DNA of 64,000 nt from Bacteroidales bacterium (lineage in GTDB: Bacteria > Bacteroidota > Bacteroidia > Bacteroidales > JAIOZK01), in the NCBI GenBank assembly GCA_021740625.1, contig JAIOZK010000010.1:62001-126000 (forward strand), written 5' to 3'. Of this stretch, positions 18,724 through 36,219 are shown one piece after another; within the stretch, counting starts at the first letter, position 1, and each line of letters begins with the position of its first letter. The position numbers and the translations under genes were made by a program. The notes beneath the pieces are model-generated. The model was not told the DNA's origin. It was given only the letters and a program-made list of their open reading frames with translations, and ran no database searches.

Positions 18724-19779
18724 TTACTGCAATACTTTAACCGAGGATGCTTTGAAAGATGCCCAGATGCTTTTGCCTTGTTCAATGTTCAGCTTTTTCA
18801 ATGATTCGGCACTGATCAGTACCGAAAGCATGAAACCGATATCCAGGGTGACTTCATATCCCCTGATAGCTGGGATGATTTCTGTAATCAAACCTTTAAA
18901 ATTATTAACAGCCGAAGTATCAGGTTTTTCACGGCTCAGGAAAATATCACGACAAGCCAGAACAATGGCTCCCGTTTGTTGTTTGGGTTCTCCCAGGATT
19001 TTAATGGAAATATTCTCGTTCAGAACTGCCAGGAAGTTATCCCCGCTGGTATCTTTCATAAATTTTACCCTGAAGAAATTTTTGACACCTGTAAAGTTGG
19101 CCACAAATTCGTTGATGGGCTTTTGAAAAACCTCCCTGGTTTTACCACTCTGTATAATGCTGCCATGATGGATCACGGCAATTTTATCTGCCAGTAAAAT
19201 TGCCTCTTCATGATCGTGGGTAACATGGATTACGGTCTGGCCCGACTGGTTGATCCTTCGGAGTAATTTGCGGGTGCCCTGTCTGAGCTGAACGTCCAGG
19301 CTGGTCAAAGGTTCATCAAGCAAAAGAATTTCCGGTTCCATGGCGAGGGTTCTGGCAAGGGCAAGTCTTTGTTTCTCACCACCGCTTAGATTCTGCGTTT
19401 TCCTTTTCAGCAAATGGGAGATCCCGAATTCTTCTGCCAGGTTGTAAACCTTGGTTCTGATTGTTTTACCAGGTTTTTTGGCAGACCGCATTGCATAGGC
19501 TATGTTGTCAAAAACATTCAGGTGTGGAAAGATTGCATAATCCTGGAAAAGCAACCCGATCTTTCTTTTTCTAATGTCAAGCCGCGTAATGTCTTTCCCT
19601 TGCAGGATGATGTTTCCGGCGTCCGGGAATTGCATCCCGGCCAGGATCTCAAGCAGCAAACTTTTACCGGATCCCGATTTACCAAGCAGCATAAAATATT
19701 CTCCCTTTTCAATTTCCAGGTGAATATTCTTTAACTGAAAGGATTTGAAGTTTTTATGGATTCCCTTAATCTTCAGCAT
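18724..19779 (-). CDS. wtpC: Tungstate/molybdate ABC transporter ATP-binding protein
   Basis: The protein has 351 residues. The nucleotide-binding domain shows Walker A LLGKSGSGKSLLLE, signature LSGGEKQRLALARTLAMEPE, Walker B ILLLDEPLTSLD and switch His in VIHVTHDHEEA. A C-terminal TOBE-like domain (from about residue 230, NFFRVKFMKD) is typical of the ModC/WtpC/CysA branch and can bind oxyanion or regulate. ATG at 19777-19779 is chosen over an upstream TTG and overlaps the permease by 14 nt. The substrate is inferred from the WtpB-type permease next door and the WtpA protein about 7 kb away. Confidence 0.88.
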   Translation of the reverse strand: MLKIKGIHKNFKSFQLKNIHLEIEKGEYFMLLGKSGSGKSLLLEILAGMQFPDAGNIILQGKDITRLDIRKRKIGLLFQDYAIFPHLNVFDNIAYAMRSAKKPGKTIRTKVYNLAEEFGISHLLKRKTQNLSGGEKQRLALARTLAMEPEILLLDEPLTSLDVQLRQGTRKLLRRINQSGQTVIHVTHDHEEAILLADKIAVIHHGSIIQSGKTREVFQKPINEFVANFTGVKNFFRVKFMKDTSGDNFLAVLNENISIKILGEPKQQTGAIVLACRDIFLSREKPDTSAVNNFKGLITEIIPAIRGYEVTLDIGFMLSVLISAESLKKLNIEQGKSIWASFKASSVKVLQ

Positions 19780-20554
19780 GGCTTCCTTTTTTGGCAATCA
19801 ATCTAAGGATCATAAAAAATATCAGACTAACCAGTATAAAAATCACTGCCACCGGGCGGGCGTATTCCAGTCCAAAGGATCCGAATCTTTCATAAATCAT
19901 TACCGGGGCGATCATCGGATGATAGGCGATGATCACTACGGCACCAAATTCACTCATTCCACGGGCAAACATCATGATCAGACCACTGAGAATATTTCTC
20001 CATGCCAGGGGAACGGAAATGGTAATGAAAACCCTCCAGCGAGAGGCTCCGAGATTCATGGCAGCTTTTTCAAGTTTTTCGGGCACCGAAGCAAATCCAT
20101 CCCGGGCAGCATTTATCAGGAATGGCAGGCTTACAAAAGCCATGGCCAGGGCGATTCCGGCAGGATGTCCAACGAAGTCTATGCCCAGGACCTCTGCGGT
20201 CTTTCCCACCCAGGTGTCTCTCGATATGCTGCCAAGCAATGCTATTCCTGCCGCAGTATGGGGTATTACAATGGGCAGGTCGATGATGCCATTTACAAGG
20301 TTTTTCAGGGGAAATTCTCTTCTTGCCAGCAAATAGGCAAAAGGGATGGCTGCAATGGCAAAGATAAAAGTCCCGGCCATGGAGGTCCACAACGTCAGCC
20401 AGATGCTTCGGAGCACTTCTGGTTCGCGGGAAGTTTCAAACAAACTGTTGGGAGTGGAGGACAAAAACAGGGATACCAGCGGACCCACCAGAAATAGCAA
20501 AATGATCCCACCGAGAAAGGAAAATATGAGATATGTTGTTTTGGTTCTGATCAT
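19766..20554 (-). CDS. wtpB: Tungstate/molybdate ABC transporter permease
   Basis: This 262-residue inner-membrane permease has about six helices. IDLPIVIPHTAAGIALLGS and RGMSEFGAVVIIAYHPMIAP are characteristic of the ModB/WtpB branch. The EAA coupling loop is EKLEKAAMNLGASRWRVF. ATG at 20552-20554 begins MIRTKTTYLIF; the longer frame adds an unlikely leader. The gene pairs with wtpC downstream, but the binding protein is not adjacent: an intact WtpA lies at 26.8-27.7 kb on the same strand. The split arrangement is unusual, since the three genes normally form one operon. Confidence 0.88.
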   Translation of the reverse strand: MIRTKTTYLIFSFLGGIILLFLVGPLVSLFLSSTPNSLFETSREPEVLRSIWLTLWTSMAGTFIFAIAAIPFAYLLARREFPLKNLVNGIIDLPIVIPHTAAGIALLGSISRDTWVGKTAEVLGIDFVGHPAGIALAMAFVSLPFLINAARDGFASVPEKLEKAAMNLGASRWRVFITISVPLAWRNILSGLIMMFARGMSEFGAVVIIAYHPMIAPVMIYERFGSFGLEYARPVAVIFILVSLIFFMILRLIAKKGSHAED

Positions 20555-20753
20555 TTGCAAAGACAAAATTATTGAAATATTTTGTTTCCAAATATTTGTG
20601 AATAAATTAATACAAGTTATGAAGATTATTGTCAATTAAGGCCTGCAGAAAAAACTTAAATGATAAATTTGCCAGTTCTGGTTTCTCAGAATAAATTATC
20701 TGCTATGCATGACTATTAATCAACTATAAATTACACACCAAAAAATTGACATT

Positions 20754-26759: not shown

Positions 26760-27743
26760 TTATTTGTTGTTTGCAAATTTCCTGAGTTCATCTGGTAATT
26801 TGTTATAAGTTTTGGTGTAAGCGGGTATCACAGAGGGTTGCCCGTTCATTTCCATGATTTTCATTCCTGAGTTTTGAGAAAGAAGGTATTCAAGGAATTT
26901 CATGGCTGTTTTTTTATTGGGTGCAGCCCTGCAGATGGTCACTCCGTAAACCATGGGCTCTCCTTTTTGTGTGATAACACTCCCGGGTTTGTTTCCATGT
27001 ATTTCAACTTCAGCCGTCTGGTAAAAAGAAGTCAATTCGGGTTTCTTCAGGTTGATAGAATCTGGCAAGGAAACATACTTTAATTGGTGTTGCTGGGCAA
27101 CCGAACGATAAATGAACATGTAATCGATTGAGCCGGTTTGGAGCAGTGCAATCAAATCTGTTTCCTTTGGGCGTATATATTCGTTGTCTTTGGCCAATAA
27201 TTTTGCTTTCAATTCCGGGAGATCATAATAATCTGAAGCAAGATCAGCCAGCAGCACAGTGCGGTAACCGCAAGGGTCGGAGTTTGGGTCGGAGCGGCCG
27301 TAGATAACATCCTCTTTGTTTAAAATCTTATACCAGTTTTGCTCGTGGATCTGATCGCTGTATCTCGAATGATTCTCATAAGCGATTACCATTTCATTGG
27401 AAGCAAACTTTATTGCCCAGTCGGTATATTCCGGGATTAGCAATTTGTTAATTACCTGATAATCGGCGGAGGCCATGATATCACAAGGCTTATTCAGCTC
27501 TGTGATTTTCCTGGCACAAGCTACACTGCCTGCTGCTTCACGTAAAATGTTCACATGCGGGTGGATTGATTGGAAGGAATCAGCAATTTGCTGAAAAGGA
27601 ACCGACAGACTGCCAGCATGAAAAATGATCAGGTCACCGGAAATTTTGCCTGGTGTATGTTCCTGCCGGGAATCGTTGTTGCGGCAGGATGCTGTGATCA
27701 CCGTTACCAGAAGCAATATGATTTGAAAGCTGCGGTTTCTCAA
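26760..27743 (-). CDS. wtpA: Tungstate/molybdate-binding lipoprotein
   Basis: This 327-residue extracellular solute-binding protein has a lipobox ending at Cys20 (VTVITASC), so it is anchored to the outer face of the inner membrane. WtpA features are IFHAGSLSVPFQQI near the mature N terminus, DIMASADYQVINKL, and YGRSDPNSDPCGYRTV, the oxyanion-site motif region of the family. It would capture WO4 2- or MoO4 2- and hand it to WtpBC. Its membrane partners are not adjacent but about 6-8 kb downstream on the same strand. It starts 6 nt after the ModE-like gene stop. Confidence 0.88.
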   Translation of the reverse strand: MRNRSFQIILLLVTVITASCRNNDSRQEHTPGKISGDLIIFHAGSLSVPFQQIADSFQSIHPHVNILREAAGSVACARKITELNKPCDIMASADYQVINKLLIPEYTDWAIKFASNEMVIAYENHSRYSDQIHEQNWYKILNKEDVIYGRSDPNSDPCGYRTVLLADLASDYYDLPELKAKLLAKDNEYIRPKETDLIALLQTGSIDYMFIYRSVAQQHQLKYVSLPDSINLKKPELTSFYQTAEVEIHGNKPGSVITQKGEPMVYGVTICRAAPNKKTAMKFLEYLLSQNSGMKIMEMNGQPSVIPAYTKTYNKLPDELRKFANNK

Positions 27744-27749
27744 TTTCTT

Positions 27750-28136
27750 TTAGTTGTTTTCTCTAATTTTACGCTGAAATTCCCGGAAAGCCTCTTCCAC
27801 CGAGTCATCGAACTTTTCCTGAAGGGCTTCGTAAGCTTCGATGAGTTTTTCACCTTTGGCGGTGAGAACAGTTGTGCCGCCGTCCTTTCCACCACGCTGC
27901 TTTGTGATGACCTGGTATCCAAGATGTTCTTCAGCAATTTTCAGGTCTCCCCAGGCTTTGCGATAGCTTATTCCAGCTTCTTCAACAGCGGCCTTTAGAG
28001 ATCCTTTTTCTTTGATGAGTTTTAACAATTTATATTTATCATCATCTATGATACCTTGCCCGGTAATTGTGGAAAGCCAGACTTTATAATTGAAAAGGTA
28101 ATTTTTATATCTGGAACCGTCTTTTTTCTTTTTCAT
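27750..28136 (-). CDS. ModE N-terminal-like winged-helix regulator, without oxyanion-binding domain
   Basis: The protein has 128 residues. The N-terminal winged helix shows the ModE/LysR-like pattern KLLKLIKEKGSLKAAVEEAG, then ISYRKAWGDLKIAEEHLGYQ and GGKDGGTTVLTAKGEKLI. E. coli ModE carries a C-terminal di-mop domain that binds molybdate (total 262 aa); it is absent here. The protein may bind DNA alone and sense metal in another way. It is the first gene of the ModE-wtpA-ALDH series, suggesting autoregulation of tungstate uptake. Confidence 0.85.
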   Translation of the reverse strand: MKKKKDGSRYKNYLFNYKVWLSTITGQGIIDDDKYKLLKLIKEKGSLKAAVEEAGISYRKAWGDLKIAEEHLGYQVITKQRGGKDGGTTVLTAKGEKLIEAYEALQEKFDDSVEEAFREFQRKIRENN

Positions 28137-28353: not shown

Positions 28354-28860
28354 ATGAAGAACATCAGTAAATTTTTAGTTACAGCATTGATTCTTTTTGC
28401 ATTTGCGAACAAGGGTTATTCACATTGTGAGATTCCCTGTGGGATTTATCATGATGAATTGAGGATAGAAATGCTGAAAGAGCACATTCAAACCATCGAG
28501 AAGTCAATGAAGCAGATCGCAGAACTGCAAAGCGCAGAAAACATCAATTACAACCAGCTCGTTCGCTGGATCGATAACAAGGAGTTGCATGCCAACAAGA
28601 TGCAGGAAATTGTATACCAGTATTTCATGAATCAGCGGATCAAACCGGTTGAACCAACAGAAGGTGAAAAATATGAAAAGTACATCAAGCAGATCACCCT
28701 GGCACACGAACTGCTGGTTTATTCAATGAAAGCCAAGCAATCCATCGATCTGGATGTAATTGATAAGCTAAGCGAAACCCTGAAAGCATTCGAGGATGCG
28801 TACTTTGAAGATAAGGATCACAGGCATAAGGTGGGGGATGATAAAGAACATAAGCATTAA
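28354..28860 (+). CDS. sodN: Exported nickel superoxide dismutase
   Basis: The protein has 168 residues. The signal peptide (MKNISKFLVTALILFAFANKGYS) would be cut after Ser23, making His24 the new N terminus. The mature N terminus then reads HCEIPCGIYHDEL, the nickel hook of NiSOD: His1, Cys2 and Cys6 (H24, C25, C29) bind Ni, and Tyr9 (Y32) is kept. The rest is helical, consistent with the NiSOD four-helix bundle. The mature protein is about 145 residues against 117 in Streptomyces, and the extra C-terminal tail is His-rich (DKDHRHKVGDDKEHKH). No SodX protease gene is nearby, so signal peptidase may do the N-terminal processing. It would dismutate superoxide outside the cytoplasm. Confidence 0.93.
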   Translation: MKNISKFLVTALILFAFANKGYSHCEIPCGIYHDELRIEMLKEHIQTIEKSMKQIAELQSAENINYNQLVRWIDNKELHANKMQEIVYQYFMNQRIKPVEPTEGEKYEKYIKQITLAHELLVYSMKAKQSIDLDVIDKLSETLKAFEDAYFEDKDHRHKVGDDKEHKH

Positions 28861-28880: not shown

Positions 28881-28907
28881 GGCGGCTCCTCAAGGGCTGC
28901 CTTTTTT
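28881..28907 (+). terminator. Rho-independent terminator of sodN
   Basis: GGCGGCTC (28881-28888) pairs with GGGCTGCC (28894-28901) with two G-U pairs and a 5-nt loop, followed by six T. Confidence 0.75.
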
Positions 28908-34050: not shown

Positions 34051-36219
34051 TTAGAATTTGTCACCTTGCAGTGGTTCCACAATTTCTATGAGTTCGGGAA
34101 GGTCCATTCCAAGTTCATTGAGATGTTCAATGGTTGGGACACCGTTTTTCGTCCAGCCGCGGCGTTTGTAAACCGCATCTAACAATTGTTCGTATTGATC
34201 TTCACGATATTTCCGTGTGATCTTTAGTTTCTCTTCCGTTGATTTTCCTTCCGGATCAATGCCCATCTTTTCCTTCAACTGTTTATCATAGCGCTCTGCC
34301 CTGGATTCATATTCCTCAACGGTAACCGGTCCGGCTGCACGGAAGGGTTGCTTGTCATGTTTTCTCAAACCATATCCCCTGCGGATATTAAAGATCCGCT
34401 GGAAGTTGTACACCCTTTCTGATTGTCTGATCATTTCGTGCTTGTCGAAAGGTTTTCCGGTGACGGCGGTGTAAAGCGTAACATAATTGTCAACATGCTC
34501 AGGTACTTTTTCCGGTTCGTCCTGTTCTGCATTGTCAGCAGGTTCCACATCGTTCCATGGGAGTTTGCAAAGCCCTTGCAATCCAAACCAGGTTCTGAAC
34601 ATTGGAAAATAGTGCAATGCATTGGCTTTATCTTCGAATGAGGGAATCTGGTTGTTTACCATGTCCATGAAGATCAGCCAGGCTTCGTCATGCTGTGGGC
34701 CTTTGTTGGTCATAGCAAAACCGCCTTGTTGTGCCAGAGATTCCTTTGAAACATATTCCGAGTATTCCAGGCCTTTGTTTTCCATGGCGATGTCCTGCAG
34801 GTAGTCGGGATCGCCCCAGCCTTTCTCGCTGAACATTTCTTTCATCTTTCTGGTTCCCATGCCAGCAATCTTTCCGAATCCCTCTCCGCGTGCGAGTTGG
34901 TGCATGAGTTCCATGGCAGAATCGGCATTGCCGAAGTTGAGTTTTAGTCCACCTGTCCTTTCGTCATTCAGAATGCCCGCTTCATAGCATTCCATCACGA
35001 AGGCGACGATGGTTCCCCATGAAATTGTACAGATACCGTATGTATCGCAATAAAAATTAGCCTCAATGATATAGTCCGGATTGAAAATACCACAATTGGA
35101 TCCGAGTCCGCCTGCGTTTTCATATTCCGGTCCGTCTACGATCACCTTTTGTCCTTTGTAAGGACCTGTCCTCAATTCATACTGATCGACTCCTTTGGCG
35201 CAGCTCATGTTACAACCGATCCAGCATCCATCTGGTATTCCCTGGGTAAATCTGGATTTCCAAACCTCTGAATGGATAGCATCTGCTTCGGGGTGGCTAC
35301 CGAATTTGTAGTTGTTTACAGGAAGCAGGTCGTAATCATTCATGATGTTGACCAGGTGTGCCGTGCCTTTGGTCCTCATTTCAGCCTGTTCGTCATCCAG
35401 CTCCCGCATTTCTTTGTTAAACCGTTTGCCTCTTTCGATGATGGCCTGCATATCTGCAACATTGTTCAGGTTGCCTTTAACACCCGGGATTTTAGCAACA
35501 ATGGCTTTCACCTTTTTGTCTCTGAAAACAGTGCCAATGCCTCCACGGCCAGCCTGCTTCAGGCGCACCAGTTTACGTTTCGAATCATAAAAGCTGAAGT
35601 TCAGCATGCCGATGAGTGAATTTTCTGCAGCCGCACCCGAAGAAACCACCCCGATATTCCGTTTGTCTTTTTCGTTATCCGCATACATTTCGGTAAGTCT
35701 TTCGGCGAGTTCATGGCTATCGACCACACCATCATAATCCACTTCGTTGATTTCTACTTTGTGGTTAACACCATCGATAAAGATCACCACATCTTTTTCA
35801 GCTTTTCCCTGCAATTCGAGTGCATCAAATCCGGCAAATTTCAGATAAGGACCAAAAAATCCACCGACATTGCTGTCGATCGGAATATCCGTCTGTGGAG
35901 AAATGGAAACGCAAATTGCTTTTCCTGTCCCCGAATACTGGGTAATTCCACCAATGGGGCCTGAGGAGATATTGATCTCATTTTCAGGATCGTTCCATTT
36001 GGTATCTGGTTTTGTGGCATCCCATAAAAGTTTGAGGTCATATCCGCGTCCGCCAATAAACTTTTCTTTCATCTGCGGATCGACGTCTTTTTCCTTAATC
36101 TCTTTGCCTGAGACGTTCACATAGAGTATTTTATCGGTATATCCCCTGTAAAGTGGCTTCCAGTCATATTTCCATTCCTTCAGCAGCTTGTGGCTCTTTT
36201 TCATTTCTTCAGCGGTCAT
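34051..36219 (-). CDS. Aldehyde:ferredoxin oxidoreductase (tungsten-pterin family)
   Basis: This 722-residue member of the AOR family oxidises aldehydes to acids with a tungstopterin and a [4Fe-4S] cluster, passing electrons to ferredoxin. The N-terminal cofactor domain shows FIGGRGYDLKLLWD, SSGPIGGITQYSGTGKA and SNVGGFFGPYLKFAGFD, the family pterin-binding pattern. Cluster ligands are probably Cys332, Cys336 and Cys340 (GCWIGCNMSC) and Cys551 (LQGLCKLPW). The spacing is Cys-x3-Cys-x3-Cys rather than the Cys-x2-Cys-x3-Cys of Pyrococcus AOR. The length, about 100 residues more than Pyrococcus AOR, includes a long N terminus. WtpABC in the same region could supply tungstate. Confidence 0.9.
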   Translation of the reverse strand: MTAEEMKKSHKLLKEWKYDWKPLYRGYTDKILYVNVSGKEIKEKDVDPQMKEKFIGGRGYDLKLLWDATKPDTKWNDPENEINISSGPIGGITQYSGTGKAICVSISPQTDIPIDSNVGGFFGPYLKFAGFDALELQGKAEKDVVIFIDGVNHKVEINEVDYDGVVDSHELAERLTEMYADNEKDKRNIGVVSSGAAAENSLIGMLNFSFYDSKRKLVRLKQAGRGGIGTVFRDKKVKAIVAKIPGVKGNLNNVADMQAIIERGKRFNKEMRELDDEQAEMRTKGTAHLVNIMNDYDLLPVNNYKFGSHPEADAIHSEVWKSRFTQGIPDGCWIGCNMSCAKGVDQYELRTGPYKGQKVIVDGPEYENAGGLGSNCGIFNPDYIIEANFYCDTYGICTISWGTIVAFVMECYEAGILNDERTGGLKLNFGNADSAMELMHQLARGEGFGKIAGMGTRKMKEMFSEKGWGDPDYLQDIAMENKGLEYSEYVSKESLAQQGGFAMTNKGPQHDEAWLIFMDMVNNQIPSFEDKANALHYFPMFRTWFGLQGLCKLPWNDVEPADNAEQDEPEKVPEHVDNYVTLYTAVTGKPFDKHEMIRQSERVYNFQRIFNIRRGYGLRKHDKQPFRAAGPVTVEEYESRAERYDKQLKEKMGIDPEGKSTEEKLKITRKYREDQYEQLLDAVYKRRGWTKNGVPTIEHLNELGMDLPELIEIVEPLQGDKF

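Follow-up and report, generated by a model that had tools for sequence, protein, structure and literature searches.

The 64,000-nucleotide stretch of Bacteroidales DNA that we analysed (hereafter referred to as the window) contains a gene for a predicted exported nickel superoxide dismutase (NiSOD), the features of which are collected in Table 1. The coordinates and the translation of the open reading frame given in the earlier note match exactly. The translated precursor begins with MKNISKFLVTALILFAFANKGYS, followed by HCEIPCGIY at the start of the predicted mature protein, and ends in DHRHKVGDDKEHKH. Judging by the terminator-like hairpin 3′ of the coding region, the gene is probably transcribed alone. 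A profile search of the source genome (4.0 Mb, 95% complete) gave this single Sod_Ni copy.

Table 1. Coordinates (window numbering) of the NiSOD gene and its features.
Feature	Position	Strand	Basis
Exported nickel superoxide dismutase precursor gene, 168 aa (predicted export)	28354..28860	+	Pfam Sod_Ni 102.5 bits; PDB NiSODs first by fold
Predicted signal peptide, residues 1-23, MKNISKFLVTALILFAFANKGYS	28354..28422	+	No twin-Arg, no lipobox; type kept in 17 Bacteroidota relatives
Ni hook His1-Cys2-x-x-Pro5-Cys6-Gly7-x-Tyr9 of the predicted mature protein	28423..28449	+	Conservation in relatives
Body of the mature enzyme, predicted to form four helices	28450..28815	+	AlphaFold2 model, pLDDT >90 over most of the body
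His-rich C-terminal tail DHRHKVGDDKEHKH, predicted disordered	28816..28857	+	4 His in last 20 residues; pLDDT <50 at 161-168
Intrinsic-terminator-like hairpin and T run, 3′ of the stop codon	28881..28911	+	8-bp stem (hairpin 28881-28901), then TTTTTT

Genes for a ModE-like regulator and the tungstate-binding protein WtpA lie divergently upstream of the NiSOD gene, an arrangement otherwise confined to loci of the same genus. No conserved partner gene of NiSOD was found; every neighbour family was limited to 11 or fewer of the loci compared, and those shared between loci follow lineage. The window also holds a set of tungsten or molybdenum genes (18724-20635, 26760-28136 and 34051-36219) encoding WtpA (389.5 bits, NCBIfam), the ModE-like regulator, an ABC ATPase and permease, and an aldehyde ferredoxin oxidoreductase-like protein. 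The WtpA and ModE-like genes are located about 6 kb from those for the ATPase and permease, the binding protein being set apart from its presumed transporter.

As the earlier note had supposed, the protein belongs to the NiSOD family: Pfam Sod_Ni (PF09055) matched residues 23-154 with 102.5 bits (E 3.1e-29), against a curated cut-off of 25. With the sodN equivalog model TIGR02753 it scored 35 bits, below the cut-off of 90, whereas the classical sodN controls from Nonomuraea and Novosphingobium scored 163.2 and 155.7 bits, respectively. These profile scores place it within the NiSOD superfamily and outside the classical sodN equivalog. A sequence search of the PDB matched Streptomyces NiSOD weakly (E 0.3), and the best 16 structural matches of the AlphaFold2 model (mean pLDDT 84) were NiSOD chains (TMt about 0.75-0.80, Foldseek E 0.01-0.09); the modelled protein has the four-helix NiSOD fold. 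It thus has in common with classical SodN of the Streptomyces type (PDB 1T6U, 1Q0D) the Sod_Ni domain, His1, Cys2, Pro5, Cys6 and Tyr9, and the fold; the hook residue Gly7 is an exception, not being common to the classical enzymes. The protein has other residues at the positions aligned with Glu17 and Arg47 of classical SodN, a comparison made against the Nonomuraea row of the alignment. The Nonomuraea Arg at position 47 aligns with a His that is invariant in the exported branch, and the SOD activity could be altered. In three genomes of one genus, open reading frames of 389-418 aa gave weak Sod_Ni matches of about 22 bits (L017, L018 and L019) and had no Ni hook.

We gathered Bacteroidota relatives, from the same order and from the phylum, by a Pfam search that was blind to the leader, and aligned 17 of them. 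Scanning genome contigs yielded 572 confirmed relatives; we kept 80, from phyla that include Bacteroidota, Calditrichota, Planctomycetota, Aquificota and Lentisphaerota. In all 17 aligned Bacteroidota copies the leader is hydrophobic, its last residue (-1) is A or S, and HCE[IV]PCGIY follows, so that the boundary pointed out in the earlier note is conserved. The leader stood immediately ahead of His1 in every one of 92 distinct sequences from many phyla; His1, Cys2, Pro5, Cys6 and Gly7 were kept in all 92, and Tyr9 in 91. Residue -1 was A, S or G in 90/92 and residue -3 was small or aliphatic in 91/92, although one of the two contig-scan patterns requires A or S at -1 and the unbiased evidence is that of the Pfam-based set. 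The export signal joined to the hook is the regular arrangement in a widespread branch, not a peculiarity of the source genome. In a tree of this branch that included only two classical sequences for judging a single origin, both lay on very long branches. One MAG with an exported-type NiSOD has a truncated second Sod_Ni gene (L020, 6-194; G130:C52) with a short non-hydrophobic leader, MKKLFRTHTAEA, directly ahead of HCDIPCGVY; its contig may be a contaminant.

The C-terminal tail is enriched in histidine. The protein itself has 4 His among its 20 C-terminal residues. Across 91 complete relatives, the frequency of His is 20% in the last 14 residues and 4.5% in the body, and HH, HxH or HxxH occurs within the last 16 residues in 78 of them. 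The tail noted earlier is thus real and recurs in most relatives, but it is not universal, four of the 91 having no His in the last 14 residues; in these sequences it is a common mark of the exported branch. That it holds nickel is a guess. The tail, together with the residues near the active site that differ from those of the classical enzymes, also accords with a different function for the exported NiSOD fold, that of a metal-binding protein carrying nickel or copper instead of catalysing dismutation; exported proteins with an N-terminal His that bind, and perhaps move, metals are described in passages of a 2025 paper (PMC12537917). We regard such a carrier as improbable, for the full hook of His1, Cys2, Pro5, Cys6 and Tyr9 is kept almost without exception, which goes beyond the need of metal binding alone.

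Work on NiSOD has dealt with a cytoplasmic enzyme matured by a protease of its own, SodX, which is related to the S26 signal peptidases. The leader at the present locus is of a different kind. Its first 23 residues have two Lys in the n-region and the 10-residue core LVTALILFAF (mean hydropathy 2.86), with G and S at -3 and -1, respectively, and the sequence GYS stands directly ahead of the HCEIPCGIY hook, as read in the earlier note. A simple rule-based test (n-region charge, hydrophobic core and (-3,-1) motif) classed the leader as a signal peptidase I substrate; the two other sites allowed by the (-3,-1) motif, at residues 16 and 18, fall within the hydrophobic core or at its end. Core hydropathy was at least 2.23 across the 92 relatives, in contrast to 0.14 and 0.43 for two classical leaders, which are short, non-hydrophobic propeptides. 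Export through Tat was rejected from sequence, since a twin Arg was found in none of the leaders of the 92 distinct relatives.

The earlier note had stated that sodX is missing from the vicinity of the gene, and this was borne out at the locus; a TIGR02754 search for a SodX-like protease elsewhere in the source genome, 95% complete, likewise found none. The best TIGR02754 match there (21.8 bits) was confined to the C-terminal box and fell within signal peptidase I (TIGR02227, 129 bits), which is the genome's sole S26 peptidase. None of 17 Bacteroidota genomes had a SodX over the TIGR02754 cut-off, and only one of 49 further genomes or records did, namely a Holophagae MAG whose NiSOD is of the exported kind. 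The cut-off is strict: at two classical sodN loci (Nonomuraea and Novosphingobium) a full-length SodX-like gene adjoins sodN, and these genes score 54.6 and 44 bits over their full length. The SodX-like gene of the Holophagae MAG (L143, 1243-1803; G706:C177) scores 76 bits, and this MAG has no other Sod_Ni gene than the exported-type one.

If the enzyme were cytoplasmic and its leader a propeptide removed there by SodX or by some other protease, as happens in Streptomyces, the SodX-like gene of that one relative would fit, and classical propeptides likewise end in A directly before HC. We nevertheless hold this to be very improbable: every relative's leader has a strong hydrophobic core, unlike the two classical leaders, SodX above the cut-off was found in none of the 17 Bacteroidota genomes, and the TIGR02753 score of 35 bits contrasts with 156-163 bits for classical sodN. 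That the protein is a lipid-anchored lipoprotein, with signal peptidase II cutting ahead of Cys25, is hardly conceivable even with a Cys so close to the end of a hydrophobic leader, given that an invariant His, which no lipobox permits, takes the place of the A, G or S before Cys25 in all relatives, that this cut would delete His1, and that bona fide lipobox-like ends are seen in neighbouring genes.

Exported proteins encoded elsewhere in the window offer a contrast at the cut site. Eleven of them expose Gln after the predicted cut, in agreement with the published Bacteroidetes Q-rule for signal peptide cleavage (PMC5837995), whereas the NiSOD branch keeps His, which suggests selection for this residue.

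The source genome has two Fe/Mn-SODs, both without a signal peptide, and a CuZn-SOD was not found in it, leaving NiSOD as its only predicted extracytoplasmic SOD. An Fe/Mn-SOD is present in 16/17 Bacteroidota genomes carrying an exported-type NiSOD. A replacement of CuZn-SOD by the exported NiSOD was also considered; the comparison proved uninformative and the idea was rejected, given that CuZn-SOD turned up in 0/78 order members lacking NiSOD as well as in only 3/45 genomes with it.

Computed support for coupled export and maturation comes from the family, the fold, the signal-peptide architecture, the conservation of the boundary and the failure to find SodX; together with the intact signal peptidase I, all of these agree with the earlier proposal that a signal peptidase cut would give the His N terminus. 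We consider it very likely that the protein is an extracytoplasmic NiSOD, exported by Sec, exposed at His1 by a single signal peptidase I cut and loaded with nickel outside the cytoplasm. The precursor would pass through Sec in an unfolded state, and ordinary signal peptidase I would presumably cleave the Ser23/His24 bond, releasing the amino group and imidazole of His1. In solved NiSODs the His1 amine is a nickel ligand, so that the metal site would be unable to form before the cut and nickel would be inserted into the exported protein, most likely in the periplasm; the His tail may gather nickel or another metal. The enzyme would then clear superoxide outside the inner membrane, with the two Fe/Mn-SODs acting in the cytoplasm. 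Against an extracytoplasmic NiSOD, Cys2 and Cys6 would need to stay reduced or be metallated quickly in the oxidising periplasm. Against a SodX-free route, a sodX could have been missed in a genome that is 95% complete, and in the Holophagae MAG a SodX-like gene accompanies an exported-type NiSOD. More speculative, and on balance doubtful, is a generalisation in which signal peptidase I matures the whole of a large exported branch, nickel is loaded outside the cytoplasm, the His tail gathers it in cis, and export and active-site formation coincide in a single event.

The exported NiSOD is a variant of a known enzyme, within a widespread uncharacterised branch; it differs from classical SodN in its signal peptide, its His-rich tail, its low TIGR02753 score and the absence of a detected SodX. 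Records of NiSOD with a signal peptide are already in print: passages of PMC12537917 describe a Sod_Ni protein of the planctomycete Roseiconus lacunae (WP_230780104.1), the signal peptide of which was used as a search probe. It too has a signal peptide ending directly before His; it belongs to Planctomycetota and served there as a signal-peptide donor, and those passages report no maturation study of it. The same passages describe exported His1 metalloproteins (LPMO, CopC, DUF4198 and Ang-1) in which a signal peptidase cut likewise creates an N-terminal His metal ligand; these have folds unrelated to that of NiSOD and bind copper or nickel without a Cys hook. We found no study of the maturation of a signal-peptide-bearing NiSOD in the literature searched, mostly papers open without subscription. 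If the proposed route is true, the dependence of so broad a branch on the general signal peptidase would mean that SodX is dispensable, and it would raise the questions of how nickel reaches a periplasmic enzyme and how its two cysteines are kept reduced.
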